64,000 nucleotides of DNA from Acetobacter okinawensis JCM 25146. GTDB lineage: Bacteria > Pseudomonadota > Alphaproteobacteria > Acetobacterales > Acetobacteraceae. Location of the stretch: contig NZ_BAJU01000003.1 in NCBI RefSeq assembly GCF_000613865.1, positions 1-64,000 of the forward strand, read 5' to 3'. Positions 6,151-25,798 of this stretch are shown here, one piece after another. Made by a program: the position numbers and the translations under genes. The stretch's first letter is position 1. Each line of letters opens with the position of its first letter. The notes beneath the pieces were generated by a model that was given only the letters and a program-made list of their open reading frames with translations, was not told the DNA's origin and ran no database searches.

Positions 6151-7301
6151 CAGTCCGCGTCCATTCCGGCCAGCTCCACAACGGAGCGCAATGCAAAGCT
6201 GCCGTGGGCTACAACGTGTTCCCCTTCCTTCAGCCCTGTGTGGATAACGGCCTGCTCACCATTGTCCATGGCTACATCCACCACAACCGGATGGTAATGT
6301 GTGTTGTCTTTCTGGATAAACACAACGGACTGACCAGAAATTTTCTGTATGGCTTCGGAGGGCACGACAAGCCCCCGGACACCGTCTTTTCCAGCAAGTG
6401 TTCCATTGAGCACCATACCGGGTACCAGTGCGCCAGTCGGATTGGGAACAATGCTGATCAGCCTGACCAGCCCCGTAAGGGCACTGGCCATTGCGCCCAC
6501 CGTATTGATGTGTGAGATAACCGGCCCTGCTGTCGTTACCGTGCTCTGCTGGGCACCGGGCTGAATATGCGCTGCCTGCTCTGGCGTCACATCGGAGACA
6601 ACCCATACGCTGGAAAGGTCCGCCAGTGTCATGACATCCTGTGCGGGAGAAAGGTCTGCCGCAACGCTAATATCCAGTGTCTGCACCACTCCATCCACAG
6701 GGGCAATCAGGGTAGACGTTTCGTCCCGGCCTTTACGTGCGCCCTGTTCCGAAACCGAGTTGAACTCCTCCTTGAAGCGATGGCCCAGCGTATCCGCATC
6801 GGCCTGACGGGTCCGCACATTGGCATTGGCCTGCGCCAGCGCATCCTGTCTGCGGTGTAACTCGGCAATGGATACGGCCTGCCCCGCCAGCAGCTGTGCA
6901 CGCTGTACAGCCTGTGCTGCATCATGCTGTGCTGCAATGGCAGCGGTCAGGGCTGCCTGTATCTGTGCATCCTGCAACTGGGCGGCGTGCAGGGAATGGT
7001 TCTGATAACGTAGTAATGGCTGCCCTTGGCGTACATGTGTTCCGGGCTGTACCAGCACCGCGAGCACCTTACCACTGCCTACGGGGTGAATGTGCACAAG
7101 CCGCGTGGTGTCGGGCATGACCTGACAGACGACCGGTATGCTCGGAAAAACCGTGCCAGATGCAACGGGAAAGACCGTAATCCCTTCATGGCTGACCGCT
7201 GCGGCATCAAGGGAGATATCGGCTGGTAACGCCTGTTCTGCGGCATAGGCGGCAAACTGCGGGAAGGCGCTTGCAAAACAAAGGAGCAGGAGTTTTTTCA
7301 T
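6150..7301 (-). CDS. czcB: Periplasmic adaptor (membrane fusion) protein of RND efflux
   Basis: A 383-residue HlyD/CzcB-type adaptor. An N-terminal signal peptide (MKKLLLLCFASAFPQFAAYA) is followed by a lipoyl-like half (VGSGKVLAVLVQPGTHVRQG), an alpha-helical hairpin rich in Ala and Gln (about 105-185), the second lipoyl half (TLIAPVDGVVQTLDI) and beta-barrel and proximal domains. The ATG at 7301 is preferred over an upstream in-frame start because it overlaps the outer-membrane-factor stop (ATGA) and begins the signal peptide. It links the pump to the outer membrane channel. No His-rich N-terminal metal-binding extension like that of some CzcB proteins is seen. Confidence 0.9.
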   Translation of the reverse strand: MKKLLLLCFASAFPQFAAYAAEQALPADISLDAAAVSHEGITVFPVASGTVFPSIPVVCQVMPDTTRLVHIHPVGSGKVLAVLVQPGTHVRQGQPLLRYQNHSLHAAQLQDAQIQAALTAAIAAQHDAAQAVQRAQLLAGQAVSIAELHRRQDALAQANANVRTRQADADTLGHRFKEEFNSVSEQGARKGRDETSTLIAPVDGVVQTLDISVAADLSPAQDVMTLADLSSVWVVSDVTPEQAAHIQPGAQQSTVTTAGPVISHINTVGAMASALTGLVRLISIVPNPTGALVPGMVLNGTLAGKDGVRGLVVPSEAIQKISGQSVVFIQKDNTHYHPVVVDVAMDNGEQAVIHTGLKEGEHVVAHGSFALRSVVELAGMDAD

Positions 7302-8533
7302 GGCACAACGCCCATGGCCAGCAGCATGCGGATGGTTGCAACACGCCATTCAATGTCTGCCCGTGCACTGGCCATCTGGGCGTTGCAGGCTTCCTGCCGG
7401 GCTTGCAGGGCCGTATTCAAGGCGACTTCACCAACCCGCCATGCCCGCTCCTGCGCTACGGCACGTTTTTCCAGACTGTCTGCGGCTGTGCGCATGGTCT
7501 GTCGGGCGGTTGTTGCCGCCATAAGACGCTCGCGGACCCGCGTAATTTCCAGATGCACCATGCGGCGCGCCTGCATTTCCTCACTATTGGCCGTGGCCAA
7601 CCGGTTGCTGGCTTCGGACATCATGGGCGTATTGCGCACTTCACTCGGCAACGGAACGCTGAAGTTAATGCCTACACGGTCATCCCAGGGGCTGCCGTAT
7701 TGTTTTTCATGGATGGCATCAATGCCAATTTCTGGATTAGGCATAAAAGACCGGCGCGCCAGCTTCATGTTTGCTTCCGCAGCTTCAACATTATGGCGCA
7801 CGACTTTTATGCGTGGGTCGTTCTCTTCCATATCATGCGGGTCCACAAAACGTGCATGTGCCAGCCCATCACCGCTGTTAAAGTCCACTTCACTGGCACG
7901 CCCCAGCAGGACTTCCTGCTCGGCAAGGGCATTATTCATGGCCTCTTGCGCCAGTGTCTGTTCATTACGGGCATTTTCCAGTCCTGCCTGTGCCATCTGG
8001 CTGTCCGAAAGAGCCAGTTCGCCTGCGTGCACCGCGTGCGTCACATTCTGGTTGATCCGGCTTGTGGCGCTGTACAGCGCGTTTGCTACATTCAGGCGCG
8101 CCTGCGCGATCTGCAATGCTGCGGCAGCTTCCAGCACTTTGATCGAAAGCACCATATGCTCGACGTTAAGCTGCTCATTAATGGATTCAGATTCCGCCCC
8201 CGCGACCTCGCGGGTAGCGCTACCTTGCCCGGGCAGCCAGAGCGGTACGGACAGACCGCCCTGATAGGTTGTGTATCCCTCATTACTGCCTATGGCATGG
8301 TCATCCATATACTCACCCGAGAGTGTTGGCCCGCCCGCAAACCAGGAACCAGCCGCACTGACACGTGCTTTAGCGGAATGATGCCCCACCTGAAGTGCCT
8401 TACGCACGGGGTCAATGCTCCAGGCCACGCTGACTGCATCATGGAAAGACAGCGCTTTTTGCGGTGTCTGGGCCTGAAGGGAGGGCATGCCTATGCCCCA
8501 GCAAGCCACACTTAAAAACAGGACAAGCCGCAT
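7298..8533 (-). CDS. czcC: TolC-like outer membrane efflux factor
   Basis: About 411 residues with a signal peptide (MRLVLFLSVACWGIGMPSLQA) and two repeated coiled-coil/beta segments typical of the outer membrane efflux protein family. Long Ala/Gln/Glu-rich helices occupy about 90-200 and 250-400. A GTG start at 8545 (four residues longer) is also possible; neither has a strong ribosome-binding site. It precedes the adaptor gene with an ATGA overlap. It would form the outer membrane exit duct for the CzcA-type pump. Antisense open frames across this gene are shadows. Confidence 0.88.
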   Translation of the reverse strand: MRLVLFLSVACWGIGMPSLQAQTPQKALSFHDAVSVAWSIDPVRKALQVGHHSAKARVSAAGSWFAGGPTLSGEYMDDHAIGSNEGYTTYQGGLSVPLWLPGQGSATREVAGAESESINEQLNVEHMVLSIKVLEAAAALQIAQARLNVANALYSATSRINQNVTHAVHAGELALSDSQMAQAGLENARNEQTLAQEAMNNALAEQEVLLGRASEVDFNSGDGLAHARFVDPHDMEENDPRIKVVRHNVEAAEANMKLARRSFMPNPEIGIDAIHEKQYGSPWDDRVGINFSVPLPSEVRNTPMMSEASNRLATANSEEMQARRMVHLEITRVRERLMAATTARQTMRTAADSLEKRAVAQERAWRVGEVALNTALQARQEACNAQMASARADIEWRVATIRMLLAMGVVP

Positions 8534-8552
8534 TGGATGACTCACGTCCCAA

Positions 8553-9068
8553 TCATTGAGGAATAATTGGCTTGTTATGCGTCACGCGTGCCGCCAGATC
8601 GTTCCATAAATTCGTGGTCACGAGGTTTATGTCTGCTTTGACTGACGAGGGGGATTGTGTACGAGAGAAAGAGGAGAGGGACATCCGCTCGCCAATCACA
8701 AATCGTCCTTGGGCATACAGCATGGCGGAGATTGTTCCCTGCCGCCCTTGCCCCAACGGTCGTTTGACGGTGATCCGCATATGTGGAGGTGGGGCTGCTA
8801 TAGTCTCAAATGCCTGCACTTGCAGGGCACCGGAAGGACAGGCAACCCCACCCAATACTGCTTCACGCAATACGGAAAATGGGTAACCACCATAGGTGCC
8901 ATCAATATGCAGGCTAATGCCTTGCCCGATAGTTTTGCAAATATCTTCTGTAGCATCGTTTGCATGGGCCAGTCGGGGGCTCGTGCAAACCAGACTCAGG
9001 ATGATTACCCCATAACGGGCGAGCTGGATTGCGCTGTTGGTCTGTTCTCGTTTGTTAGTCACGTTCAT
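8553..9068 (-). CDS. Small exported protein of unknown function, efflux operon leader
   Basis: About 171 residues. The ATG at 9068 has AGGA eight bases upstream and starts a long N-region followed by a hydrophobic stretch (YGVIILSLVCTSPRLAHA), a likely signal peptide with cleavage after AHA. The mature part has two Cys (DICKTIG and GVACPSG), so a disulfide is possible, and no domain I recognise. It ends about 20 bp before the outer membrane factor and is co-oriented, so it is probably the first gene of the czc-like operon. The position suggests a periplasmic accessory protein, by context only. A longer in-frame start at 9188 exists but lacks a signal sequence at its N-terminus. Confidence 0.6.
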   Translation of the reverse strand: MNVTNKREQTNSAIQLARYGVIILSLVCTSPRLAHANDATEDICKTIGQGISLHIDGTYGGYPFSVLREAVLGGVACPSGALQVQAFETIAAPPPHMRITVKRPLGQGRQGTISAMLYAQGRFVIGERMSLSSFSRTQSPSSVKADINLVTTNLWNDLAARVTHNKPIIPQ

Positions 9069-9182
9069 GTCATCCTGTTGAAAGTCATAACCTTCATAAC
9101 AGAGGAAAATGACGTGAACCTGAACGGCAGGGAAAAGGTAGAAAATCAGGCTCGCAGGGTATAGCGACTGTTTGCCTATGTC

Positions 9183-9270
9183 AGGCATGAGAGTGTAGGC
9201 CGACGACCCTTGCTCTCATGCCTATTTTGCCCCTTGCCTTTTGTTGCTGGAGCATCAAAGGGCAAGGGCA
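9183..9270. repeat. Two tandem inverted repeats between zntA and the efflux operon
   Basis: First repeat: AGGCATGAGAG at 9183-9193 pairs perfectly with CTCTCATGCCT at 9213-9223. Second: TGCCCCTTGCCTTTTG at 9228-9243 pairs with CAAAGGGCAAGGGCA at 9256-9270 with small bulges. They lie downstream of the ATPase stop and upstream of the small exported protein gene. On the minus strand no U-run follows either stem; on the plus strand a T7 run follows the second at some distance. Possibly transcription-insulating hairpins or an attenuator for the minus-strand operon. Confidence 0.55.
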
Positions 9271-9277
9271 GGCTCTC

Positions 9278-11416
9278 CTAATTTTTTTGTGCAAGTCCCG
9301 CGGGTTTTGTGCGTAAAAGCCGCAGGGCGTTCAGGGTTACAAGAACGGTGGCGCCGGTATCGGCCATAATGGCCAGCCACAGGCCCGTCATGCCAATAAT
9401 GGTTGTTACCAGAAAAACCCCTTTCAACCCGAGTGCGATGGATACATTCTGCCGGATATTGCCCATGGTCGAGCGGGCAAGGCGAATAAGGGCCGGAATG
9501 TCTGTAATACAGTTACGCAGTATGGCGGCGTCCGCGGTTTCCAGCGCAACATCTGTTCCCGATCCTATGGCAACACCAACTGTTGCCTGTTTAAGGGCTG
9601 GGGCATCGTTAATGCCGTCCCCCACCATCATAACCGGGCCACGTGCTGCCAGTTCGCGGATGGTCTGCTGTTTCTGCTCCGGCAGCAGTTCGGCTTCGTA
9701 ATCCGTGTGCAGCAGGGCTGCAATGGCTGCGGCTGTGCGTTGGTTATCTCCTGTCAGGATAATGGGCGTGACCCCAAGGCTGCGGAGTTGCCGTATTGTT
9801 TCCTGCGCATCCTGCCTTGGTTCATCCCGTAATCCGATCAGTGCCAGAGCCGTGCCGGTATAAAGGACAACAACCGTTTTGCCTTCACTTTCCATGGCAG
9901 TGGCCTGTGCCGCGGCTGTGCTGGACAATGCGCCATCCTGCATTGCATGCCGGGGGCTGGCGATTGTTATGATCTGCCCATCAAGCATGGCAGACACACC
10001 CTTGCCCGCAATGGCGCGGCTATCCTGCACAGTTGGCAGCGCCATGCCTGCCGCCTTGCGTACAATGGCCTGAGCCAACGGGTGGTTGGAGGCTTTTTCC
10101 ACTGCTGCGGCAAGAGCAAGAACTTCGGCCGTAGAGTGCTGATCCAGGCAGAGAATATCCGTTACCTCGGGCTGGCCCATGGTCAGGGTGCCTGTTTTAT
10201 CCAGTGCAACCGTTTTGATTGCCGCCGTGGCTTCAATAACGGCACCGCCCTTCATAAGCAGGCCGTGCCGTGCCCCAGCGCATAGAGCCGATGCAATGGC
10301 GGCAGGGACCGAGATAACCAGAGCGCACGGGCACCCAATAAGCAGCAGGGACAGGCCACGATAGACCCAGACCGACCACGCCTGCCCAAAAAATAGGGGT
10401 GGGATAGCTACAACCAGTGCAGACAGAACTACAATGGAAGGCATGTACCAACGGCTGAAGCGGTCAATAAACCGCTGTGTTGGTGCGCGTGAGTCTTCCG
10501 CCTGTTCAACCATCCGGATAATCCGGGCAATGGTATTGTCTGCGGCTGCACGTGTTACCTGTATCCGCAGGGCTGTTTCGTTATTAATCGCCCCAGCAAA
10601 TACCGGGTCGCCCGGCCCACGTGTTACGGGCATGCTCTCACCCGTTACGGGGCTTTCATCCACACCGCCGGTGCCAGAAATGATCGTGCCATCGGCAGGG
10701 ATACGGTCCCCCGGCCGCACAATAACAATATCGCCGGGCACAAGTTCTGCTGCCGCGACGTCTTCCAGCATGTCGTTTTTTTCGCGCAGTGCCGTTTTGG
10801 GGACCAGCGTGCTTAACGCCCGAATGCCATCGCGTGCATGGCTTACAGCAACGCCTTCAAGCAGTTCGCCCACTGCAAACAGAAAGACAACCAGAGCCGC
10901 TTCCTGCGCTGCGCCAATAAACAGCGCACCAGTTGCGGCAATGGTCATCAGTGCTTCAATGGAAAAAGGCTGCCCTGCACGGATGGCGGCAAAAGCCCGT
11001 AAGGCAATGGGGATAAGGCCCGCAAGGCACGCTACAATAAAAGGCCAGTTCCCGGAAGCCGGCAGCAGAAGTGTTAGCCCCCATGCCACCACAAGCAAGG
11101 TTGCGGTGAGCAGAACAAGATGCCCTTTTCCTGTTCGGTACCAAGGCGCGGCGGTTTGTGTGGTGTGCTCGTCAGACTCATTGCGCGCGCCGCCTGCCTG
11201 TGCAATGGCTTCAATACCGTAACCAAGGCTTTTTACCCGGTTTTCAATGTCTGCCGGGGAAGTGGCATGCGTCGTTGCCGTAACCCTGAGTTTTCGGGAC
11301 ATGACAGATATTTCAACCGCTTCAATGCCGGGTAGCTGGTCTACGGCTCCTTTTATTTTTGTAGCGCAGGATGGGCAGTCCATCCCTGTTACGAACCATT
11401 CATGTGTATCCGGCAT
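9278..11416 (-). CDS. zntA: P1B-type heavy-metal exporting ATPase (ZntA/CadA class)
   Basis: A 712-residue inner membrane pump. One N-terminal metal-binding domain carries GMDCPSCATK near residue 12. Later come the membrane metal site CPCALV, phosphorylation motif DKTGTLTMG, the SNHPLAQAI His-Pro motif and hinge GDGINDAPAL. The last helix contains ADTGATVLVTLNALRLL, whose Asp matches the Zn/Cd/Pb subgroup (P1B-2). The ATG at 11416 has AGGAGG seven bases upstream; an ATG six residues earlier lacks one. It exports Zn, Cd or Pb from the cytosol. It is divergent from a MerR regulator and read from a MerR-type promoter (11450-11480). Confidence 0.94.
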   Translation of the reverse strand: MPDTHEWFVTGMDCPSCATKIKGAVDQLPGIEAVEISVMSRKLRVTATTHATSPADIENRVKSLGYGIEAIAQAGGARNESDEHTTQTAAPWYRTGKGHLVLLTATLLVVAWGLTLLLPASGNWPFIVACLAGLIPIALRAFAAIRAGQPFSIEALMTIAATGALFIGAAQEAALVVFLFAVGELLEGVAVSHARDGIRALSTLVPKTALREKNDMLEDVAAAELVPGDIVIVRPGDRIPADGTIISGTGGVDESPVTGESMPVTRGPGDPVFAGAINNETALRIQVTRAAADNTIARIIRMVEQAEDSRAPTQRFIDRFSRWYMPSIVVLSALVVAIPPLFFGQAWSVWVYRGLSLLLIGCPCALVISVPAAIASALCAGARHGLLMKGGAVIEATAAIKTVALDKTGTLTMGQPEVTDILCLDQHSTAEVLALAAAVEKASNHPLAQAIVRKAAGMALPTVQDSRAIAGKGVSAMLDGQIITIASPRHAMQDGALSSTAAAQATAMESEGKTVVVLYTGTALALIGLRDEPRQDAQETIRQLRSLGVTPIILTGDNQRTAAAIAALLHTDYEAELLPEQKQQTIRELAARGPVMMVGDGINDAPALKQATVGVAIGSGTDVALETADAAILRNCITDIPALIRLARSTMGNIRQNVSIALGLKGVFLVTTIIGMTGLWLAIMADTGATVLVTLNALRLLRTKPAGLAQKN

Positions 11417-11449
11417 TATATCCTCCTGTCCCAACGAGAGAGAATGAGA

Positions 11450-11480
11450 TAGCTACATCCTCTAGTAACTAGAGGTTCAA
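11450..11480 (-). promoter_or_regulatory. MerR-type metal-responsive promoter/operator
   Basis: On the minus strand a -35 TTGAAC (11475-11480) and a -10 TAGCTA (11450-11455) are separated by 19 bp. The spacer is almost filled by the perfect dyad CCTCTAG-TTA-CTAGAGG (11459-11475). An overlong 19-bp spacer with a central dyad is the hallmark of promoters untwisted by metal-loaded MerR-family regulators. It drives the ATPase gene and lies 11 bp upstream of the merR-like gene, so the same protein probably also autoregulates. Confidence 0.85.
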
Positions 11481-11491
11481 GGGGATTCTGC

Positions 11492-11935
11492 ATGTTGAGT
11501 ATCGGAAAGCTGTCTGGGCTGACTGGTGTAAAAGTGCCAACCATCCGGTACTATGAGCAGATCGGGCTGCTCCCCAAGCCGGAACGGAATGAAGGTGGGC
11601 AGAGAATTTACAATCATACCAGCCGCGAACGTCTGAATTTTATTCGCCATGCGCGCGAACTGGGTTTTCCGCTGGACGATATTCGTGAATTGCTGGCTCT
11701 GTCGGACGACCCCGACCAGAGCTGTGACGCCATTGATGCCATTGCAAAGCGCCAGCTTGCGGAAGTGGAGCACCGGCTTGTAAGGCTGAAGGCCCTGCAT
11801 AAGGAACTTGAGCGTATGATAGTACAATGCACCTGTGGCACAGTGCAGACATGCCGGGTTATTCAGGTTCTGGGGGATCATGGCCTATGCGCGGCTGATC
11901 ATCAGAAAATCGTGTCTCATGATATTGACCAGTAA
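11492..11935 (+). CDS. MerR-family divalent metal regulator (ZntR/CadR/PbrR-like)
   Basis: 147 residues. The N-terminal winged helix has GKLSGLTGVKVPTIRYYEQ and GLLPKPER, followed by a long dimerisation helix. Candidate metal ligands are Cys78 (DQSCDAI) and the C-terminal cluster Cys113, Cys115, Cys121 and Cys133, matching the spacing class of ZntR/CadR/PbrR sensors of Zn, Cd and Pb. AGGGGA sits upstream of the ATG. Divergent from the P1B ATPase with a MerR operator between them, it almost certainly controls that gene. The 264 bases after it up to the arginase fragment show no gene. Confidence 0.9.
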   Translation: MLSIGKLSGLTGVKVPTIRYYEQIGLLPKPERNEGGQRIYNHTSRERLNFIRHARELGFPLDDIRELLALSDDPDQSCDAIDAIAKRQLAEVEHRLVRLKALHKELERMIVQCTCGTVQTCRVIQVLGDHGLCAADHQKIVSHDIDQ

Positions 11936-12199
11936 CGACGCAAATGACTGCTTGCTTGGAGTGCCCTGCCAAACTTCCTTTTACGGTATAAATATCAGGC
12001 GTGACTATGGCCTGATTTATCAGGATTATTGTGAGTAAAACTCAGCAATATAGTTCTATGAAATGCATATTATTCATGAAAAAATACTCAGGACTGAGAG
12101 CGCTAGGCCGTAACACAGGCCGGGCCGGAATGATGATCTGATCAAACCTGCCAAGTCTAATGCAGGCGCTCTCGTGCTGATCGTTTTGGGAGAGAGTGC

Positions 12200-12337
12200 G
12201 TGTCAAAACCGGACAAGAACACACTGCGTCTTATTTTTCCGCAATGGCAGGGTGGGGATAACCCACCATATTATCTGGGGTCCAGATTGCTGGCATGGCT
12301 GGCACCCCCATCCCACGGACCGGTTGAGAAATGCTAA
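12200..12337 (+). pseudogene. Arginase-family protein, N-terminal fragment
   Basis: A GTG start behind GGGAGAG reads VSKPDKNTLRLIFPQWQGGD and then YYLGSRLLAWLAPP, which resembles the first 40 residues of arginase/ureohydrolase-family proteins. The frame stops at 12335 exactly where the minus-strand recombinase frame ends, so the rest of the gene has been removed or displaced by the mobile element. The identification rests on a short stretch. Confidence 0.5.
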
Positions 12338-13656
12338 CCATGCCAGGAGCGGGTTTTGTTATGATCAAACATGCCTTCCTTGATGGCTTCGATGATGCCC
12401 CGGATCTGTTTCTCGACCTTCACCTGTTCGATCTGCCAGACATCGGCATTGGACCTGCGTTCGCGATTGAGGCGGTTGGTCTCCTCGGCATAGGCGCGCA
12501 TCGCCTCGGCCGCGATCTCCGGCGCCATCATCCGGTCCTTCAGCCCGGAGAGCACGCGGCGCTCCAGATCGGGGCGGGGGATCGTCCGGCTGTTGGTGCA
12601 GGAGCCGTTGGTGACATGGGACGAGCAGGCGAAACGGTCGGAACCGCGCAAGGTGTAGGGACCGCCGCACTGGCCGCAGAACAGCAGACCCGACAGCAGG
12701 GATTTCGGTCGGCGTGTGCCGTTGAGCCGGTTGCGCTTGTGATGCGCCCGCACGGCCTCGGTGACGTTGACGTATTTCTCGGCGATGACGCTCTGACGGG
12801 CCTTGGTCGCCTGCCAGAGCGCGTCGTCGACGATCCGCAGGTCGGGAACTTCCGTGATCACCCATTCTGACTCCGGGTTCAGGCGCGAGACGCGCTTGCC
12901 GGTGGACGGATCTTTCACATAGCGTTGGCGGTTCCAGACCAGACGCCCGATATACAATTCGTTGTTGATGATGCCGGTGCCGCGCTTCACATGGCCCCGG
13001 ATGGTGGTGTCGCTCCACAACTTGCCCTCGGGGCCAGCAATGCCCTGATCGTTCAGGGCCTTGGCAATGGCGCGTGGCCCAATGCCAGCGGCGAAGTCAT
13101 GGAAGATGCGACGGACGATCTCCGCCTGGCGGGCGTCGATCTCGCGGTCGCCCCGGATCTGCTCGCCCTTTGCATTGAACTGCCGGACAACGCGATAGCC
13201 GTAGCACAGGCCGCCGCCAGATTTACCGTCCTCGACCCGACCGCGCAGGCCGCGATGGGTCTTGGCGGCGAGGTCTTTCAGGAACAGGGCGTTCATCGTG
13301 CCCTTGAGGCCGACATGCAGTTCACTGATCTCGCCCTCCGCCAGGGTGACGATAGGAACGCCGGCGAATTTCAGGTGCTTGAACAGGGTGGCCACGTCGG
13401 CCTGATCGCGCGAGATGCGATCCAGCGCCTCGGCCAGCACGATATCGAACCTTCCCGCCTGGGCGTCCTGCAACAGGGTCTGAATGCCGGGACGCAGGAT
13501 CATGCTCGCGCCAGAGATGCCCGCGTCCTTGTAAGCACCAACGATTTTCCATTTCTCGCGCTTCGCGTGTTCCCGGCAGATGCGGAACTGGTCCTCGATC
13601 GAGGCGTCGCGCTGGTTGTCGGAAGAATAGCGGGCATACAGGGCGACGCGGGTCAT
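12334..13656 (-). CDS. Large serine recombinase, C-terminally truncated
   Basis: 440 residues. The N-terminal resolvase domain starts MTRVALYARYSSDNQRDAS, with the catalytic Ser in YARYSSD and the conserved EALDRISRD helix. The recombinase domain (about 165-290) contains GYRVV and RAIAKALNDQGI. A zinc beta-ribbon follows with LLFCGQCGGPY and FACSSHVTNGSCTN. The family normally continues into a long coiled coil; here the frame ends after FDHNKTRSWHG, the last residues coming from foreign sequence, so about 100 residues are probably missing. It likely mobilised the element now reduced to 12.3-15.8 kb. Catalytic parts look intact, but function without the tail is doubtful. Confidence 0.85.
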   Translation of the reverse strand: MTRVALYARYSSDNQRDASIEDQFRICREHAKREKWKIVGAYKDAGISGASMILRPGIQTLLQDAQAGRFDIVLAEALDRISRDQADVATLFKHLKFAGVPIVTLAEGEISELHVGLKGTMNALFLKDLAAKTHRGLRGRVEDGKSGGGLCYGYRVVRQFNAKGEQIRGDREIDARQAEIVRRIFHDFAAGIGPRAIAKALNDQGIAGPEGKLWSDTTIRGHVKRGTGIINNELYIGRLVWNRQRYVKDPSTGKRVSRLNPESEWVITEVPDLRIVDDALWQATKARQSVIAEKYVNVTEAVRAHHKRNRLNGTRRPKSLLSGLLFCGQCGGPYTLRGSDRFACSSHVTNGSCTNSRTIPRPDLERRVLSGLKDRMMAPEIAAEAMRAYAEETNRLNRERRSNADVWQIEQVKVEKQIRGIIEAIKEGMFDHNKTRSWHG

Positions 13657-13669
13657 GGGATGTTCCTTA

Positions 13670-14050
13670 TCAGGCGACCTTATCCATCCGGCTGGGCCGG
13701 ATCAGCACCTCGGCGGAGATGCCGAGACCGTCATGCAACTGGCGGATCATGTCGATCGACAGGCCGCGCTTGCGGTTCAGCACATCGGCCACCCGGTTGC
13801 GTGGGCCGATCATCGGTTCCAGATCCTTGCGGGTCAGGCCCTGCTGCTCCATGCGGAAGCGGATCGCCTCGACCGGATCGGGCGGATCGATCGGATGGTG
13901 CTTCGCTTCATAGGCGTCGATCAGGGTGGCCAGCACGTCCAGACGGTCGCCGTCCGGTGTGCCGCTCTTCGCACCCCACAGGCGCCCGACTTCTTCCAGC
14001 GCTGCGTCATAATCCGCCTCGTTGCGGATGGGTTTCAGATCAGCCGTCAT
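13670..14050 (-). CDS. higA: HigA-type antitoxin (XRE HTH)
   Basis: 126 residues. A Glu/Asp-rich N-terminal half (NEADYDAALEEVGRLWGAK) is followed by an XRE-type helix-turn-helix (GLTRKDLEPMIGPRNRVADV) that ends LNRKRGLSIDMIRQLHDGLG. This is the COG5499 HigA-like antitoxin layout. It overlaps the end of the toxin gene by 11 bp, in the toxin-first order typical of HigBA. It should neutralise the partner toxin and repress the pair. It lies directly downstream of and co-oriented with the toxin and 13 bp before the recombinase gene. Confidence 0.88.
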   Translation of the reverse strand: MTADLKPIRNEADYDAALEEVGRLWGAKSGTPDGDRLDVLATLIDAYEAKHHPIDPPDPVEAIRFRMEQQGLTRKDLEPMIGPRNRVADVLNRKRGLSIDMIRQLHDGLGISAEVLIRPSRMDKVA

Positions 14051-14363
14051 GTTTCACCTCCGTCACGTCGATCCTGTCATACGCTTTGTGTGTGCCGATC
14101 CATTTGATCCAGACGATGCTTTTTTCGAAATCGACCGCCACCACTAGGCGATAGGCATTGCCCTTGATGTTGAAGACGATCCGTTCGGCGCTAACGATGC
14201 TGGCCGTCGCATAGAGCCGCTTCACATCGGCGGTGCTCGTCCAGGCGGCCCTGCCGACTTCGGCGAACCAGGCGTCCAGCGCCGCCTTCACGGCCGGCTG
14301 GTCCTTCTGACCTGCCAGGCTGTCGACGAACTCTCTCAGCGTGCGACGGGCGATGATCCTCAT
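14040..14363 (-). CDS. higB: HigB-type mRNA interferase toxin
   Basis: 107 residues starting MRIIARRTLREFVDSLAG, with a RelE/HigB-like fold: helical N-terminus, then the core SAERIVFNIKGNAYRLVVAV and the terminal WIKWIGTHKAYDRID. The ending HKAYDRID is characteristic of the COG4680 HigB group that cleaves mRNA on the ribosome. The pair sits among conjugative-element remnants, consistent with an addiction module that may help keep the debris in place. Confidence 0.88.
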   Translation of the reverse strand: MRIIARRTLREFVDSLAGQKDQPAVKAALDAWFAEVGRAAWTSTADVKRLYATASIVSAERIVFNIKGNAYRLVVAVDFEKSIVWIKWIGTHKAYDRIDVTEVKHDG

Positions 14364-14464
14364 TGACTGGCCTTATATCACGGGACCATAATGGTCACAA
14401 GGAAAATGCACGACAGCCCGGCGAATGGTCTTTCGCCGGGAGAAATGTAGTCGGGAAGGGGAGG

Positions 14465-14641
14465 CTACCGCATAGGGCCGGATCGGTTCTGACGGGCCTG
14501 TTTCCTCTCCAGCGCGCGGGCACGCTCGAACTGCTCGCGGGCCATTTGACGGCCGATCAGGCGGGCGAGGGAAAGGATGGCCTCATTGGAGGGGCTAACC
14601 GCATGTTCGGCCGTTTCCGCCTCACTGGCGGGGCCGAACAC
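14465..14641 (-). CDS. Small plasmid-associated protein, possibly 5'-truncated
   Basis: A 58-residue frame from a GTG reads VFGPASEAETAEHA, SPSNEAILSLARLIGRQMAR and ends in a basic tail (RALERKQARQNRSGPMR). The charged helical C-terminus and the position beside a relaxase remnant fit small accessory proteins of conjugative elements. I cannot assign a family. In-frame codons upstream (DRIRIEVFG) continue the pattern to a stop, so the original start may have been lost at the junction with the relaxase fragment. Confidence 0.4.
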   Translation of the reverse strand: MFGPASEAETAEHAVSPSNEAILSLARLIGRQMAREQFERARALERKQARQNRSGPMR

Positions 14642-14654
14642 CTCGATCCTGATC

Positions 14655-15430
14655 CTGTCGGGTCATCGTCTCACCGGAGGATGCCGGGGATCTCGCCGAC
14701 CTGACGGGCTACACCCGAGATCTGATGGCGCAGGTTGAAGCCGATCTGGGCACGAAACTCGATTGGGTTGCCGTCAATCATCATAACACCGGCCATTCGC
14801 ATGTGCATGTCGTCGTCAACGGACGTGACGATCTGGGCGAGGATATGGTCATCAATGGCGATTATCTTCCAACGGCATCCGCGAACGGGCGAGCGAACTA
14901 GTGACCTTGGAACTCGGCCCTGCCACCGAGATCGAGCTGCGCCGAAAGCTGGTTGCCGAAATCGACCAGGATCGTTTTACCCGTATCGACCGGGCGATGC
15001 TCGCAGAGGCGGAGGACCGGTTTCTCGATGTGCGCTACGAGCCTGATGATCCGCGCGGGCAAGCGGATCGGACCCTCCGTCTGCGCCGTCTTGGCAAGCT
15101 GGGCGATATGGGCCTCGCCACGGAACATGCGCCGGGCGTGTGGGAGCTGAGCGAGCGGCTGGAGCCGACGCTGCGCGAGATGGGTGAGCGCGGCGACATC
15201 ATCCGCACGATGCAGAAGGCGCGCGGGCGGAGGGCGCTGAGCGCGACCCGATGAGTTTTGCGATCCATGATGCAGCACCTGCGACGCCGATCGTCGGTCG
15301 CGTCCTCGACAAGCATCTGTCGGACGAACTGGGCGAGGAACTGACGCTGGTGGTCGATGGGATCGATGGTCGCACGCATCATGTCGCGGGCATGGACGCG
15401 GCCCGTGTCGCAGAAGCACGGATCGGCAGC
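14655..15430 (+). pseudogene. DUF3363-type relaxase, broken internal fragment
   Basis: Frame one (to about 14880) carries EDAGDLADLTGYTRDLMAQV and the relaxase histidine triad in VAVNHHNTGHSHVHVVVNG. A one-base shift near 14875 moves to a frame with GIRERASELVTLELGPATE and TRIDRAMLAEAEDRFLD. A second shift near 15245 moves to PIVGRVLDKHLSDELGE and LVVDGIDGRTHHVAG. These blocks follow the order of DUF3363/VirD2-like mobilisation relaxases. Both ends are missing: the N-terminal Tyr domain at the left, and the C-terminus replaced at about 15400-15437 by the tail of trbI. Nonfunctional. Confidence 0.8.
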
Positions 15431-15559
15431 AACCGCCTGATCGATCGCAGTCTGAATATTCAGCCGACGCTGACCGACCGGCCGGGCCTGCCGTTCACGC
15501 TTATTTTGAATCGCGATCTTGCCCTCACACCCTGGAAAGCGAAGGAACCCCGCCCATGA
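15430..15559 (+). pseudogene. TrbI C-terminal tail fused to relaxase remnant
   Basis: The last 40 or so residues of the frame read LIDRSLNIQPTLTDRPGLPF and LILNRDLALTPW. NIQPTLT-x-RPG-x-P and the NRDL-x-L-x-PW ending are the conserved C-terminus of the conjugation channel protein TrbI/VirB10. The next gene is a DUF2274 gene, which typically follows trbI. A deletion must therefore have joined the relaxase interior to the end of the trb operon, removing the transfer genes between. Confidence 0.7.
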
Positions 15560-15777
15560 CGAAGTTGAAGCTTGGTCCGATCGAGGATGACAAGCCCGTG
15601 AAGATTACGCTGGAGCTGCCCGCCGCTCTGCACCGTAATCTTGTTGCCTATGCTGAGATATTGGGTAGTGGAGCCGGGCAGGCGCCCACCGATCCCGTGC
15701 GTCTCGTTGTGCCCATGCTAGAGAGATTTATCGCTACTGATCGGGGATTCGCGAAAGTGCGGCGAGCAGCATTATAA
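15556..15777 (+). CDS. DUF2274-family protein of the trb region
   Basis: 73 residues: MTKLKLGPIEDDKPVKITLE, then LPAALHRNLVAYAEIL and MLERFIATDRGFAKVRR. This is the short DUF2274 family that usually lies immediately after trbI in trb-type conjugation operons and resembles a ribbon-helix-helix-like protein (LELPAALHRNLVAYAE). Its ATG overlaps the end of the trbI tail (4 bp). It is an isolated survivor of the deleted transfer operon; role unknown. Confidence 0.75.
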   Translation: MTKLKLGPIEDDKPVKITLELPAALHRNLVAYAEILGSGAGQAPTDPVRLVVPMLERFIATDRGFAKVRRAAL

Positions 15778-16182
15778 CGGGTTACGGGTGAATGAAGACG
15801 GGCCGAGGCACAAGCCGACAGGCAGATAGCGCCTTATATCAGACCTCTGGGTAGTCCTTATCTATGTCCAGAAGCAGACACGGTAAGAGTAAAAAGCGCT
15901 TATATTCGTAGCATATAAACTTTCACTACTTGTCAGATTTGATATACAATAGGATTAATGAATCGAATATCTCTCCTGGTAAGTTTAAAGGTTAACCACA
16001 ATTACCGACATTACTATAGATAGACAGACAAATTTTTATGAAACGCCCCGGCGTGGGCTGCATGCCCCGCAACTAGATATATAAAAAAATCAATTAAATC
16101 AGCATGCTGTGGATCGTTCACCAATGGCCTATCCTGTGCCGGTGAAGAGACTACACGATTTCAATCGTTTACGTAAACGGGT
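15778..16182. other. AT-rich spacer at left edge of the defence island
   Basis: No gene recognised. The stretch changes from GC-rich conjugative debris to AT-rich sequence (about 15890-16100). It contains TGCCCCGCAAC at 16063-16073, a near copy of the repeat at 27911-27922 beyond the other end of the island. Confidence 0.5.
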
Positions 16183-16416
16183 TCAAATCGGGGGGGAAAT
16201 ACCCGCAACCAAATAGATGCAGGCTACGCGGGTAGCTGCTTCCATCATACCAAGCACTGACAATACTGCCGATTGCCCGCTGCGGCTCGATATTGCCGCC
16301 GATCGCCGCATGACCATGCGGTATAGGTCGCCCCATTTGCGCGGTCGCCCGCAGACCGGGTCTCCGATCAACAGCGATGCGAGTACCGCCCATTCAATAT
16401 CCGTCAGGCCCTTCAT
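16183..16416 (-). mobile_element. IS5-family transposase N-terminal remnant
   Basis: The minus-strand frame starting MKGLTDIEWAVLASLLIGD and continuing GRPRKWGDLYRMVM matches the conserved N-terminal DUF4096-like segment of IS5 transposases (LTD-x-EW, then GRPR). After about 16310 the similarity is lost. It lies just outside the first gene of the defence island, like the IS remnant at 25.6 kb inside it. The 210 bases from here to the helicase start, with a G10 run near 16460, hold nothing recognised. Confidence 0.6.
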
Positions 16417-16626
16417 ATCGCTGCAATCTGCGGCTATAGTTTCGCCATGTGGTCGGGGGGGGGGGAAAGTCATGGCCCAGTTGATGGTTTCGCAACCCAT
16501 TGAAATCATAAGGCCTTCGATCGCTCAGCCCTTCTCGAATGGGCTTTGAAGGGGGAGGTAGATGACCATCACGGTAGCTCTGAGGACGGTTGATATTTGC
16601 AACGATAGTTTGGCGCATTAGCTTGG

Positions 16627-18735
16627 ATGCGAAGGCAAGTGGATACGGTTCGAGTTGCCGTTTGGCGAGCAGGTCAAATTGTTGATACTATCGACGAGCC
16701 TCCTCTCGACCAGTCGGCGACCGAGGCCGTCACGTCGAGTAGCCGGATCCATGGACTGAGTCAGGAGCAGATGGCAGAACAGCCGCACGACGCCGGTACG
16801 CGTCGGGAGATTATCGGCGCACCTGCGTCCGCCCGCATGATCGTAGAAGCCGGGCCGGGTATGGGCAAGACGGAGGTCGCAGCCCGTCGTCTGGCCAGCC
16901 TCATCCGCAATGAACTCTCACCGGCCCAGATCCTGGTCCTGAGCTTCTCCCGAGGCGCGGTTAGGACGCTGACCAAGCGTCTCGGCAGAGTCGACGAGGC
17001 CGATCCTCGGGTGGTGGAGGAACTGCGCCATTTGTCGGTGCGCACGTTTGACTCATGGGCCTTCCGCATGCTGAGATTACTTGGAGAGGCCCCTCAAAGG
17101 CTACTGGCGCGGAAACACGACGACAATATCGCCGCGCTCACCAATCTGATTACCGGCGATCGCGGCGGCGACGTCCGCCGCTTCATGGGTGACCGGCGAC
17201 ACCTCATCGTGGACGAGTTTCAGGATCTTCCTGGCGTCCGGGGAGATCTCGTCCTCGCTCTGCTGTCGCTTTTAGCTCCGCCGGACCAAGAAGGTTGCGG
17301 GTTTACCATTTTGGGCGATCCGGCACAGGCGATCTTCGGTTTCGCGCGTGGTGTTCGCGCGAACGGGGCGCCGTTCCCGTCTCCGCAGGAATACTGGCAA
17401 GAGGTCTTGCGATCTTACGGGAGTGGCCTTGACGAGAAAAGGCTCGCCCGCAACTTCCGCGCCGATCCGCCTCTCGCGCGTATGTCGGCCGAGTTGCGCA
17501 GCGTGTTGTTAAGCAACCGGCCGGACAAAGAGAAGCTGCGTCACATGCTCGCTGCCGTGGCCGCACTTCCGGAGACTTCGCTCCCCCTCGGACGCGGCTT
17601 GCTCGAGGCAGTCACTGGTGGCAGTCGGGCCATCCTGACACAGACCAATGGCGAGGCACTAAGGGTGCTCCAGGCTCTGTACAGGGACGACCCTGAACCA
17701 TCCACGATCCGCGTGTGGTTGCATGCGGGCAGTCATACAATGTTGCCGCCGGCGTGGATCGGCGGCTTATTGAGAAAGCTACGCTCTACCTCTCTACCAC
17801 GTACGCAGTTCGCGAAAATTTATGCTCTTCTGACGAAACTCTGGGGAGAGGAGGCCTGCGTTCGGTTGGGGCTGCCAGCCGAGGAGGTTGCGTGGGTTCG
17901 ATTGGCGCAGGCTAGCGGAGCCCCGAACGATGCGACCGCCATCGACGTTACTCAACTTCGCGAACGTCTGGCTTGGCCCGATGCATTCCCGGACGACCAG
18001 TCGATCGCCGAGGACGGTGTGATCGTCACAACCGTCCATCAATCGAAGGGAATGGAATTTGACGCAGTCACCCTGCTCGAGCCCCCCGTCGCTGGCGGCG
18101 AAGACGACGATGAAGAGGCCGATGTCGAGAGTGACGAAGAGCAGGGAGAGCGTGCCAGCGTCGCCTATGTCGCCATGACGCGCGCCGGCAAATCTCTCGA
18201 CCGCGCGGGTGCCGATCAGATCTTCCAAGTGCCGGTGCATCGGAAGTTCGCCGGCGGGCGCAGACGACTGTGTTCATGGCGGAAGAACTGGATCAACATG
18301 GAAATGGGTCTTCGGGGGGACGTCGATCCCATCGGCTTCGCCGATCCAGCGCTGTTGGGCGGAGTGGCCGGCGTTGAAGAGTTGCAGGCGTTCCTGCTCT
18401 CCAACGCCAGCGCGCTTTCGGGCCGCAAGGTGATGCTTTGCAGGCAGTATGCCGATGGCAAAGCCGAGTGGCATATACATCTCCAGGAGGGTTCGAAGCC
18501 GGGCCGCCTTGTAGGCCGGACGTCCAATCGGCTTTCGCTCGACCTGCTGAGGATTTTACACAAGCATCGTCAGAAACTTCCTCGGACCATCATGAACCTC
18601 CGTATTTCGTCGGTGGGGACCGTGACTTCAGATGGCACCGGCCGCCTTGGCGAACCGGAGAGAACCAGTGGGCTATGGCTGGGGGTCGGCCTCTTCGGCA
18701 CCGGTGATTTCCAGACATGGAAGGATAAGAAGTGA
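16627..18735 (+). CDS. UvrD/Rep-like SF1 helicase of the DISARM-like island
   Basis: 702 residues. SF1A motifs in order: Walker A AGPGMGKTEVAARRL near residue 75, motif II LIVDEFQDL near 195, motif III GDPAQAIFGF near 230, motif IV-like LARNFRADPP near 285, motif V TTVHQSKGMEFD near 468 and motif VI-like VAYVAMTRA near 513. An acidic insertion (EDDDEEADVESDEEQ, about 490-507) sits between V and VI. The C-terminal 180 residues match nothing I know; no nuclease motif is visible. Its TGA overlaps the GTG of the drmA-like gene (GTGA), so it is the promoter-proximal member of a four-gene operon. A role as translocase or loader for the DrmAB-like pair is inferred. Confidence 0.85.
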   Translation: MRRQVDTVRVAVWRAGQIVDTIDEPPLDQSATEAVTSSSRIHGLSQEQMAEQPHDAGTRREIIGAPASARMIVEAGPGMGKTEVAARRLASLIRNELSPAQILVLSFSRGAVRTLTKRLGRVDEADPRVVEELRHLSVRTFDSWAFRMLRLLGEAPQRLLARKHDDNIAALTNLITGDRGGDVRRFMGDRRHLIVDEFQDLPGVRGDLVLALLSLLAPPDQEGCGFTILGDPAQAIFGFARGVRANGAPFPSPQEYWQEVLRSYGSGLDEKRLARNFRADPPLARMSAELRSVLLSNRPDKEKLRHMLAAVAALPETSLPLGRGLLEAVTGGSRAILTQTNGEALRVLQALYRDDPEPSTIRVWLHAGSHTMLPPAWIGGLLRKLRSTSLPRTQFAKIYALLTKLWGEEACVRLGLPAEEVAWVRLAQASGAPNDATAIDVTQLRERLAWPDAFPDDQSIAEDGVIVTTVHQSKGMEFDAVTLLEPPVAGGEDDDEEADVESDEEQGERASVAYVAMTRAGKSLDRAGADQIFQVPVHRKFAGGRRRLCSWRKNWINMEMGLRGDVDPIGFADPALLGGVAGVEELQAFLLSNASALSGRKVMLCRQYADGKAEWHIHLQEGSKPGRLVGRTSNRLSLDLLRILHKHRQKLPRTIMNLRISSVGTVTSDGTGRLGEPERTSGLWLGVGLFGTGDFQTWKDKK

Positions 18736-21700
18736 GCCGTCCCGATTACCGCTCGGTCCGCACTGATCTGCTGCGCACTGCGACCGCCCTGCTTCTGGGA
18801 CCTCTCGAACCGAACGAGGAGATCGCTTCAGCACCAGTTGACACTTACCTGACCGGCATCCTTTGGCCGGAAGGTGAGATGCTGGACGTTATGGAGGACG
18901 ACCAAGACAATGGCGCGCCCAACGACGCCGACGGTGAGATTGATGCTGGTGTGCCTGGTTATCGCGCCGTTCGACCGTGTTCGCTGGGCCTTACATTCGC
19001 TGTTGACGAGCAAGCCACAGTCGTCGTCTCGACGGCGTTGACGGCGCGATATGTGCCGATCGAGCGCGAACCGACCGAAGGGGGTAAGAGGCGGCGTCGA
19101 ATCTGGGCAAGGCGGCAGCTCGACTACATCCACGAGATTCTGCCCGGTGAAGCTGGCATTTGGAGCGTCCACGACTTCGTAGGTCCGGACGGCGCCCCTA
19201 TTCACGATCCCACAGTCCGACTGCATATTCGTCGACGTCTTTCCGGAGGTCGTCAGATCCTGACGATCACATTGATCAACAAGGCGCAACCCACTGACGA
19301 CCGCCTGAGAGACGAATTCTGCCTTCTGCAGTCAGGCCTCAAGATCCAATCGATCGCATCAGATGGCCAAGGCGCAATCCGCCCACGGCAGACACCCGCA
19401 CCTGCTGGCGCGGACGATGACGCACGCTCCGCAGCGCTTCTCTATCGTGACGTGCTTGAATATGCTGTCGGACACGGCGTGGCCGTTATTTGGGAACCAG
19501 CTCCGGAACAGCGGATCGGCTGGCTCGAAACGGCATGGATGCCTGTCGCCTCCGTGAAAGGCATGAGCGCGTCCGGGCACGATACCCTGAGGAAGTTCCT
19601 CGGCCAACATCCGCAGGCGCTGTCCGCCGAATGGCTGGCCCGACAGGAGGAGCGCGGCAAGGTCACGAGCGTACTCCGCGGATTGGCGTGCAGCTATGAG
19701 GAGTGGATCCGCGACGAGCTCGCATCCCGCGTCGACGGGTTTTCGGGCGACCTCCGGATCGCGGCTGACCGGAACCTGGGCCTCTGCAGGATGACGCTCA
19801 GGCGCATCCAGGCGGGGATCGATACGCTTGCCAGCGACGAGGACGCTTGGAAGGCATTCACGTTGGCTAATGCGGCGATGGACAGGCAGTCGCGGTTTCC
19901 TGCCAAGGGTGAGCGTGCGGGGCCGCTCACTTGGCGGCCGTTCCAGCTGGCTACATACTTATGGTCTTACCAGGTTTGGTCGATCTCGCGGATCCCGACC
20001 GCGATCACGTCGACCTGCTCTGGTTTCCCACCGGCGGTGGCAAGACCGAAGCATATCTCGGGTTAACGGCTTTTCAGATCCTCTACCGCCGGCTAACTGA
20101 CGCAGCACGACGGCACGAGGGCGGTGTAGACGTGCTGATGCGCTACACCCTCCGTCTTCTGACCGTGCAACAGTTTCAGCGCGCCGCTGCGCTGATCTGC
20201 GCATGCGAGGCGATCAGGATTGAGCGTAAAGATCTCGGCGAGGCCCCGATCTCACTCGGTCTCTATGTCGGAGGGGACGCTACTCCGAACAGAGTCAGCA
20301 AGGCGCTAGAAGCTCTCGACCTTGAACACGACGGTCAGAAGCCGAAATCGACCCCTCGACAGCTGTTGGAATGTCCGGTCTGTGGCAGCAGACTTGACGC
20401 CGATTGCTACGAACGGGCTCCAGACGACGCCGGCATAGATATCCGCTGCCCGAACGAGGTTTGCGCGACGGGCGGCAAACCGCTCCCCGTGATGACGGTG
20501 GATGACTTCATCTACAATGCGCCGCCCAGTCTCCTGATAGGCACCATAGACAAGTTCGCTCAGCTTCCACGACGCAACGACATCCGGGCCCTCTTCGGCC
20601 TGGATGGCGGCCTCCGGCCCGGGCTTATCGTCCAGGACGAACTGCATCTGATCTCTGGACCGCTCGGGTCGATTGCCGGCCTCTACGAGACCGTCGTCGA
20701 CTTGCTCTGTACCGACGACGGAATCCGCCCTAAGGTGATCGGCTCGACCGCTACGATCGGGCAGGCCAGACGCCAAGTCCGGGCATTGTTCGACCGCCCG
20801 GTGCTCCAGTTTCCTCCGTCCGGCTTCGAGGCTGCAGACTCCTTCTTCGCTGTGCGTGACAAAGACGGTCCTGACCGGCTGTATGTCGGGTTGTGCTCGG
20901 CCGGTCGAAGCCCGAAGTTCGCGCTCCAAGCGGCAGCCGCGGCGCTCCTCCAGGGGATCGGCCACCTCGTCAACGTTGGAGCGGACCCCGCTCTCGCCGA
21001 TCCCTTCTGGACTGCCGTCCTCTACTTTAACAGCCTCCGCGAGCTCGGCGGCGCCCATGTGCTCCTGCAAGACGATATTCCACGACAGATTGCATTCCTC
21101 GCGAGCCGCCTCGGAGGTGGTGCGCGGGTTCTCGAGACCGATGCAATCGAGCTGAGCAGCCGGGTATCTTCCCGCGACCTCCCAGACTTCCTCGCTCAAC
21201 TTGGAAATCCGCTTACCGACGGCAGCGATCCGTTCGAACCCGAGCCGCGTGATGCGGTCCTGGCATCTAACATGATTTCCGTGGGTGTCGACGTATCCCG
21301 CCTCGGCCTGATGCTGGTCAACGGACAGCCCAAGTCGACCGCCGAATACATTCAGGCGAGCAGCCGAGTGGGCCGCGGCATCGACGGCCTCGTGATGACT
21401 CTCTACAATTTCGGACGGCCGCGCGACGTCTCGCACTTCGAGCACTTCTTGACCTATCATGGCGCGCTCTACCGGAGCGTCGAGGCGACCAGTGTCACCC
21501 CTTGGGCGCCTCGCGCACGTGACAAGGCCCTCCATGCGGTCATCGTGGCGGCAGTCCGGCACCTCTCTCACGGAATGGACGGCGATGAGGACGCGGTCGA
21601 CTTCGATGCCAAAGCAGAGGACGTAAGGCTACTCATCGCTGCCATCCGCCAGCGCGCGGACACAGCCTCTGAGGGAATCGAGGCGGAGGCCGCCGCCGAG

Positions 21701-21937
21701 GACATCGACGCCATCGTAGAGGAGTGGGCTTGGAGAGGCGCAGGCGCGCGCGCCGCTGGAACCGACCTGCTTTACTGGAAGCGGCCCGCCCCTTTCGGCA
21801 AGACCAGGCCATATCTGATGACGTCGGCCGAGGAGGGCGGCCAACCGGGTACTCTGGCCTGGATAACCCCGAACTCGATGCGCGAAGTCGAGCCGTCCAC
21901 CGCTTTTGTATTGAAATCGATCAGCAGGAGGCCCTGA
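18732..21937 (+). CDS. drmA: DrmA-like SF2 helicase (DISARM), frameshifted
   Basis: One gene of about 1,068 residues split by a one-base deletion near 19953: one frame runs from 18732, the second continues from the matching point to 21937. The N-terminal 400 residues are poorly conserved. The helicase core has Walker A LLWFPTGGGKTEAYLG (about 430), MRYTLRLLTVQQFQRA (about 470), a Cys cluster CPVCGSRLDADC and CPNEVC (about 545-575), a DELH box IVQDELHLISG (about 633), and motif VI STAEYIQASSRVGRG (about 870). This is the DrmA pattern of DISARM anti-phage systems, always paired with DrmB as here. Restoring one base after CTGGC in the Arg-Pro-Phe-Gln-Leu segment rejoins the frames. GTG start, GTGA overlap with the helicase upstream. 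Confidence 0.83.
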
Positions 21938-21938
21938 C

Positions 21939-23827
21939 GTGGCAAGACGACCCCGGAGCTTCCCCACGCCTGAACCAATCGATGCTATCGAGCCGATTGG
22001 AACCGTTCGCCGATCGCAACTCGTCTCGACCTTCGGCATTGGAGCGATCGTCGATCTTGAGAAGGGATCGTTCATGCCCATGGGCCTCGAGGACTGGGAA
22101 CGGGTCAACTCCCTACCGTCGCTCAGGATCGGCGAGGAGCGCCTGCAGGCGATGCTTGGTGTCAGCCACTTCCGCCTCGGTCCCGTGAAGGAGCAGTTGG
22201 CCGGAACCACACAGATCCGCGCCCGCAGCGCGGCACCCGCAGTGAGGTTTCCCGAGTGGCACGAGTGTCCAAAGTGCCATATCATCGGGCGAGAGGGCAC
22301 GCCCTTCGAACTCGCCGACGATGGTGCCCGACTGCGCTGCACAGCCCATGGCGGCAATGTCTTCACCAATCCTGTCCGCTTTGTAGTTGCCTGCCGCCGC
22401 GGCCACCTCAGCGACTTCCCGTGGGAATGGTGGGCACATCGAGGTCATGAAGAGGGTATTTGCCAGCGTCCGCTGCTGCGGCTCGGCTCGCACGGCGAGT
22501 CCGCGTCCCTCGCCGACCTTTTCGTAATTTGCGAGGCCTGCAGCACGCCGAACCGGAAGACTTCGCAGTCGTTAGGGACCGCGTTTGGCGCGGATGCCCT
22601 CAATGGCTGGGCATGCGATGGCTTCAGACCCTGGCTGCATGATCGTCAAGCTGACTGCCCGGAGCCGGTGCGCGCTCTCCAGCGCGGCGCCTCCAATGTT
22701 CACTTCGGCGTGGTTGGCTCCGCACTTTCCATCCCGCCCGCATCTGAGGCGCTGACACAAATCGTCGAGCAATCCCGAATGTATCTCGATGGCGTGCCCG
22801 AGGCGGCGCTTCCCGCCGTCCTGACGGGCGTGTCCCAGACCTACGGCGTCCCGGTGGACCAGCTACTGGCGGCATACCGGCGCCTGCGGTCACTTGAAGG
22901 AGGCGGCCCTCCTCTCACAGAAAAGATCGCGCGCGAGCAAGAGTACGACGCGCTATCGCAAAGCCGCGACGACCCCATCGTTGGCGGGGTAGTGCCGCAG
23001 TTCCAGAACGATGTACTAGATCCGCCACCGGCGTTGTCCAACTGGTTCGATCTCGTCGGAGCGACGTCGAGGCTTCGCGAGGTGCGTGCCCTTGCAGGGT
23101 TTTCCCGGATCGAGCCGTACCCCGTCAGCCCGGAGCGCGTCCGGCAAGCAATTGCAGAAGGCAAGGTATCCCCGCTTTCGAAGACCGAAAGAGCTTGGCT
23201 CCCTGGTGCCGAAATAAGGGGCGAAGGCATCTTCCTGCGCTTCCGAACGGAAACCGTCGACGGCTGGATCGAGGACAACCCCGGCCTTATAACCCGCGCC
23301 GCCATCCTCGAAACCCGAAGTGGAGCGATCGCGCAGGAGCGCGGCTATGACCGCGATTACACAATCACGCCGCGCCTGCTGTTGGTGCACGCCTTCTCGC
23401 ACGCCTTCATCCGGCAGATCTCGGTCGAATGCGGCTACTCAGCCTCCGCGCTGCGCGAACGCCTCTACGTATCCGACACCGGGAGGACCATGAACGGCGT
23501 CCTCATCTACACCGGCTCGCCCGACTCAGAAGGTAGTCTGGGAGGCTCGTCCGCTTGGCCGACCCCCAACTGCTCGAACCGATCGTCCTCCGAACGCTCG
23601 CCAACGCCGGCTGGTGCGGAAGCGATCCGGTGTGCCTAGAGACGGACCCAAGGCAGTCGGGCGATCGAATCAGCGGCGCGGCCTGTCACTGCTGCCTCCT
23701 CCTTCCAGAAACGGCGTGCGAGCGCTTCAACCGGGAACTCGACCGTGCGATGCTGGTCGGCGACGCGGAGAACGCTTTCTCGGGCTTCTTCAAAGATCTC
23801 GTTTCGGAGGCCCAATGGCAATCCTGA
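21939..23827 (+). CDS. drmB: DrmB-like DUF1998 protein (DISARM), frameshifted
   Basis: About 629 residues after allowing a one-base deletion near 23546 (the read GGAGGCTCG would restore as GGA-GGN-CTC). The GTG start follows AGGAGG, 1 bp after the drmA stop. The N-terminus has RRSQLVSTFGIGAIVDLEKG and MGLEDWERV, typical of DrmB. Putative zinc ligands lie in HECPKCHIIG (about 108), ACRRGHLSDFPW (about 150) and CEACSTPN (about 197). The DUF1998 domain has LLVHAFSHAFIRQISVECGY (about 484), and after the shift ADPQLLEPIVLRTLANAGWC with final CHCCLLLPETACERFN. DrmA and DrmB form a complex that binds and translocates DNA in known DISARM systems. Confidence 0.83.
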
Positions 23828-25770: not shown

Positions 25771-25798
25771 AGCCGCGCCGGGGCTCGTGATGCCATAC

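Follow-up and report, generated by a model that had tools for sequence, protein, structure and literature searches.

The closest described systems are ICEs of the ICEMlSymR7A type from Mesorhizobium, which carry rlxS, traG and trbBCDEJLFGI, and Tn4371-like ICEs, in which a relaxase gene and a variable region are followed by traG and trbBCDEJLFGI. ICEs beside tRNA-Met genes are reported among those of the ICEMlSymR7A type in PMC8627217, and PMC8627217 and PMC2789088 together describe the RlxS/Trb backbone, tRNA-Met sites and a copy that is possibly truncated. In the literature on acetic-acid bacteria with ICEs, no title among the matches listed was on an element like the one described here.

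We analyzed a 64,000-nucleotide stretch of DNA from Acetobacter okinawensis JCM 25146 (contig NZ_BAJU01000003.1, positions 1 to 64,000), hereafter the window. It very probably contains the relic of an RlxS/Trb (MPF-T) ICE that was inserted at the 3' end of an initiator tRNA-Met gene and has decayed by several deletions (Table 1). Like the ICEMlSymR7A-type ICEs, the intact relatives of this relic have an RlxS-family relaxase (below the NCBIfam cut-off), TraG and a Trb backbone. They differ in carrying a serine recombinase at the left end, with no PF00589 integrase found inside, and from the window copy traG, trbB-G and the greater part of rlxS and trbI are missing. Tn4371-like ICEs use an 8-bp site (TTTTTCAT in many), whereas the elements here end at the tRNA-Met 3' end; judged by this common end, they differ from the Tn4371 family in their attB. 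A relic of this kind is ordinary. The present one is well resolved and gives a base-level view of mobile-element decay, with short-homology deletions whose parents are known and with what remains after them. It also points to an element family in acetic-acid bacteria at the tRNA-Met gene, with defence-gene matches before the right end of the four elements scanned. Neither the view of decay nor the element family overturns what is known. Below, G numbers denote genomes of the family, C numbers contigs and L numbers scanned loci.

Table 1 Features of the relic element and its left flank in the window
Feature	Position	Strand	Evidence
Flank outside the element: heavy-metal ATPase, presumed MerR-type regulator, 5' part of a presumed arginase-like gene	9909-12330		
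38-bp scrap, interior of a multicopy repeat	12331-12368		13 copies, matching with 2-4 mismatches, in 12 fetched stretches
Large serine recombinase with truncated C-terminus and short unrelated tail	12334-13656	-	Resolvase, Recombinase and Zn-ribbon domains
HigA-like HTH antitoxin	13670-14050	-	PF01381, E 1.6e-5; same ORF in C42, G218, G367 and G337
HigB toxin	14040-14363	-	PF09907, E 1.1e-28; PADLOC PD-Lambda-2_A, E 9.9e-37
Middle part of relaxase gene (RlxS/DUF3363), 5' and 3' parts gone	14663-15431	+	~90-92% DNA identity to own-genome C94 and six family relatives
Fused ORF with relaxase residues ahead of the TrbI C-terminus	15251-15559	+	102 aa; Pfam, NCBIfam
trbI 3' end	15429-15558	+	79-83% DNA identity (with DUF2274) to C96, G337, G321, G364 and G367
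DUF2274 gene, complete open frame	15556-15777	+	PF10038, E 3.9e-33
Cargo: UvrD-like helicase, DrmA (two overlapping frames), DrmB-like protein, NERD/UvrD-like helicase	16627-25551	+	PADLOC, Pfam
Cargo: cytosine methyltransferase	25813-27444	-	Best PADLOC match DrmMII, E 7.1e-39; PF00145
Element right end; last 13 bases (GCCCCCGCAACCA) equal the tRNA-Met gene 3' end in relatives	27895-27924	+	

The fused reading frame and the relaxase fragment

A preliminary description of the window had reported a frame that passes from DUF3363 relaxase sequence into the TrbI C-terminus, with the DUF2274 gene next, and both Pfam and DNA comparison confirm this arrangement. In the fused ORF, DUF3363 matches residues 6-60 (E 9.1e-14) and TrbI matches residues 60-91 (profile positions 156-187 of 188, E 1.5e-4), the latter with 22.1 bits, which is under the Pfam curated cut-off of 35. 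The NCBIfam models for RlxS and TrbI also match, both under cut-off. TrbI shares its frame with no more than about the final 60-70 codons of the relaxase sequence. DNA comparison with relatives places the right joint at 15429-15431, with three shared bases (GCA). This lies within the range of 15400-15437 in which the joint had been expected, and relatives of both of its parents were found, on C94 and C96 of the same genome. Over window positions 14400-15800, the own-genome donors are C42 for 14400-14663 (89% identity), C94 for 14665-15431 (90%) and C96 for 15429-15797 (79%). C94 holds a 607-aa relaxase (RlxS E 6e-186, under the NCBIfam cut-off), TraG and TrbE, while TrbF, TrbG, trbI and DUF2274 are on C96. 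A second related element is present in the genome in pieces, comprising the recombinase module (C42) and the stretches from repA to trbL and from trbF to the right end (C94 and C96).

Relaxase sequence is present from about 14663-14665 onwards, though not as one open frame. DNA comparison gave the fragment a hard left edge that the preliminary description did not report. This left joint, at 14663-14665, is where the fragment meets the recombinase-HigBA module, with a 2-bp overlap (TC). Of the relaxase gene of an RlxS/Trb-type ICE, the window holds the middle fragment only, and in an alignment with nine relatives this fragment has two 1-bp deletions, after 14868 and after 15222. The two frameshifts may be sequencing noise, because the own-genome C94/C96 copy also has frame breaks (three of 17 genes: lytic transglycosylase, trbB and trbI) and relatives have none (0 of 17 genes in each of G337, G321, G364 and G367). 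Same-genus matches to other window genes, used as a control for frameshifts, were short and weak. The private changes in the fragment amount to nine silent and four replacing ones over 253 codons, similar to those of the seven other copies compared, so that relaxed selection is not visible in it. The large deletions are independent of the frameshift and substitution evidence.

Collinear relatives and two probable internal deletions

In G337 and G367, a single contig carries the module, relaxase and trbI, ordered and oriented as in the window, and this collinear homology of three blocks with intact elements indicates descent from an RlxS/Trb-type ICE. G321 and G364 carry the relaxase and then trbI, and G218 and G277 the module and then the relaxase. 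Each of the four fetched stretches that contain both relaxase and trbI (G337, G321, G364 and G367) shows the genes for the relaxase, TraG, TrbB-I and DUF2274 in collinear order; the relaxase also precedes trbI in the weaker matches G011:C4 and G303:C3, as placed by the family genome search rather than in fetched stretches. In the annotated Sphingopyxis plasmid pMC4, the genes from repA through DUF2274 follow this order too, and ~13 kb separates DUF2274 from the relaxase point. Of the 18 pMC4 query proteins, 17 (parA being the exception) match in each of the four relatives as one stretch in one frame, trbL being matched just in part in G364 and G367. TraG and the Trb secretion operon are all present in the relatives, while window positions 11001-29000 yield relaxase pieces, the trbI end and DUF2274 only. 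Because the relic is just 79-94% identical to its relatives, its direct parent is unseen.

The points joined on the left in the window are 10.1 kb apart in G337, 9.6 kb in G367, 12.5 kb in G218 and 15.7 kb in G277, and those joined on the right are 19.4 kb apart in G337, 17.1 kb in G367, 21.1 kb in G321 and 18.9 kb in G364. Since relaxase, traG, trbB-I and DUF2274 are collinear in the four fetched relatives, the simplest reading of the right joint is one deletion that connected mid-relaxase to the trbI end.

We propose that the intact element was inserted at the tRNA-Met 3' end, a site that is seen in relatives and that the matching right end suggests for the window as well. Intact relatives begin at the tRNA-Met 3' end with the large serine recombinase, followed by HigBA, repA, a lytic transglycosylase and the relaxase, and continue with variable cargo, traG, trbB-I, DUF2274, cargo and the right end. 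In the window, a left deletion of ~10-16 kb would have brought the HigBA module up against the interior of the relaxase, and a right deletion of ~17-21 kb the relaxase up against the trbI end, both probably through illegitimate (microhomology) recombination. Further events would have cut the recombinase and left the repeat scrap. The resulting relic, presumably unable to excise or transfer by itself, retains HigBA, the DISARM-like cluster and the right end.

The preliminary description had proposed one deletion that took the rest of the relaxase and the trb operon and froze the element in place. One deletion suffices for the right joint in view of the collinear relatives, but the further joints mean that it leaves the state of the element unexplained, and the 5' part of the relaxase was not taken by it, having gone in the separate deletion at 14663-14665. 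The element is indeed crippled, but by several lesions: the 3' end of the recombinase gene is missing as well, and the window does not contain the left end. Loss of a usable recombinase and of an end would by itself block excision, so freezing is not attributable to one lesion, and the relic is probably immobile through several.

Recombination between two co-resident elements, or several nested deletions indistinguishable from one, might also have produced the right joint, and we regard this as unlikely. The pieces on C42, C94 and C96 do provide a second related element, to which the trbI part of the relic is less similar (79%) than the relaxase part (90%). However, the trbI ends of other relatives are also less similar (80-83%) than their relaxases (~90-92%), so the contrast may be mere gene variability, and there is a single joint between the two genes. 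It is very improbable that the joins at 12331, 12368, 14664 and 15430 are assembly artefacts of repeated element copies. While the genome is a 127-contig draft in which three contigs carry related pieces of the element and these own copies have frame breaks, the three blocks differ by ~8-21% from the other own-genome copies and were therefore not copied from those contigs. Furthermore, block order and orientation fit the intact element, and the internal joins sit within a 172-kb contig and overlap by 2-3 bp only, which is too short for an assembly overlap.

A natural protein family with the fused relaxase-TrbI architecture, which the preliminary description named as evidence against a deletion, was looked for and was found in none of the collections searched (family genomes, plasmids, genome_contigs and viral_contigs). 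Among the matches listed for 397 family genomes (141 with a match), none outside the own genome spans the right joint, and none spans the left joint. With positions 14000-16400 as the query, no place among the best 30 plasmid matches covers 80% of it, 157 plasmid records having a match. One degenerate junction pattern gave 0 matches in genome_contigs and viral_contigs, whose scope possibly leaves out the own genome; the pattern fixes residues around the joint, and a diverged relative could escape it. That the frame encodes a working chimera with a role under selection is scarcely credible, for although the fusion is in frame and an intact DUF2274 ORF directly follows, chance alone would put a join in frame in one case out of three, the frame is without the relaxase N-terminal part, its TrbI domain is reduced to the last ~30 residues, and the joint recurred in none of these searches.

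Serine recombinase and left flank

The window recombinase keeps residues 1-430 of its 565-aa relative in G367, with 98.4% amino acid identity over these residues, and is cut at 12368 beside the 38-bp repeat scrap. Lacking the remainder of the recombinase for excision, the truncated protein is predicted to be without activity. In G367, the full-length recombinase adjoins the left end and reads into the tRNA. The recombinases of G218 and G337 are single frames by tblastn, which ruled out the broken copies suggested there by an ORF listing; the copies in C42 and G174 change frame. No PF00589 tyrosine integrase was found inside the elements used, although the domain is present in seven of the seven genomes searched; the one on G367:C7 sits outside the left end of the element. 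No site-specific recombinase other than the serine recombinase was seen in the elements, and, as the PF00589 integrase is absent from them, we take the serine recombinase to be their putative integrase.

The 38-bp repeat piece stands alone between two unrelated blocks. Its 13 copies elsewhere have up to ~1.16 kb in common downstream and similar bases upstream, and one of the stretches is C110 of the same genome; the repeat may be read as a candidate insertion sequence. The flank to its left is 94.8% identical at the DNA level to G408 of the same genus; the G408 sequence goes on beyond 12331, the point at which the window departs from it. Plasmid regions similar to this flank are annotated with a heavy-metal P-type ATPase and an HTH protein. 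Genes of metal-efflux type (histidine kinase, CusB/HlyD-type protein and heavy-metal-translocating-like ATPase) lie at 1057-11434, outside the element.

Cargo and defence genes

The cargo resembles DISARM clusters in its profile matches to DrmA, DrmB and DrmMII, the last in the methyltransferase. It differs from them in that DrmA, at 18732-21937, lies in two overlapping frames that change near 20000, and in that DrmC is not among the matches listed for the window ORFs scanned. The split DrmA is either a pseudogene or a sequencing indel. The UvrD and NERD helicases are additions to the usual DISARM make-up.

PADLOC was applied to four elements, those of the window, G337, G364 and own-genome C96, and each has defence-gene matches in the slot that separates DUF2274 from the right end. 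In G337 this slot contains IetAS, a CBASS-type cyclase and a phospholipase, in G364 a methyltransferase, SIR2-HerA and an HNH-type protein, and in C96 IetAS. The cargo sets differ among the four elements except for IetAS, which is common to G337 and C96. It is conceivable, if doubtful, that the element in the window became a fixed defence island stepwise, losing its transfer and excision genes and keeping HigBA and the DISARM-like cargo. If so, the host may benefit from a defence cluster that is no longer able to leave.

Element ends at the tRNA-Met gene

The right end, GGTATCGGTGCTTGC..GCCCCCGCAACCA, is common to the relatives, and the bases directly after it differ; past it, a terminator-like hairpin and a later motif are common to several flanks. 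With up to two mismatches, the right end occurs in 15 of 397 family genomes, and its reversed control matched nowhere. ARAGORN reported tRNA-Met(cat) in 10 of the 24 loci scanned, which we take from its sequence to be the initiator tRNA. The exact 13 bases end nine of these ten genes, L068 differing at one base. One of these nine marks the left end in G337, giving this element a length of ~40 kb. G323 also has an uninterrupted tRNA-Met gene, after which comes almost the same flank as beside its right end. One form of the initiator tRNA anticodon arm matched in 0 of 31 genomes, and the site was read from the real tRNA genes instead.

Of the two attachment ends of an ICE, the window has the right end alone. 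Nothing in it matches the left-end sequences of G367, G218 or C42, and the contig may stop short of the left end; no Rfam model reached its gathering threshold in the window. The left end is unplaceable because the tRNA-Met 3' end (a 19-mer with two mismatches) was not found in the own assembly, in a search whose reversed control matched in two of 12 genomes (G364 and G174).

A right-end pattern with three free positions matched 12 stretches of genome_contigs, which belong to Acetobacter, Komagataeibacter, Gluconacetobacter, Gluconobacter and Tanticharoenia. A second end type, located before AATCCTGCCCCCGCAACCA at the same tRNA-Met 3' sequence, was seen in L070, L071, L076, L078, L080, L084, L089 and L091, mostly with a short inverted repeat, which suggests that other elements may use the tRNA-Met site too.
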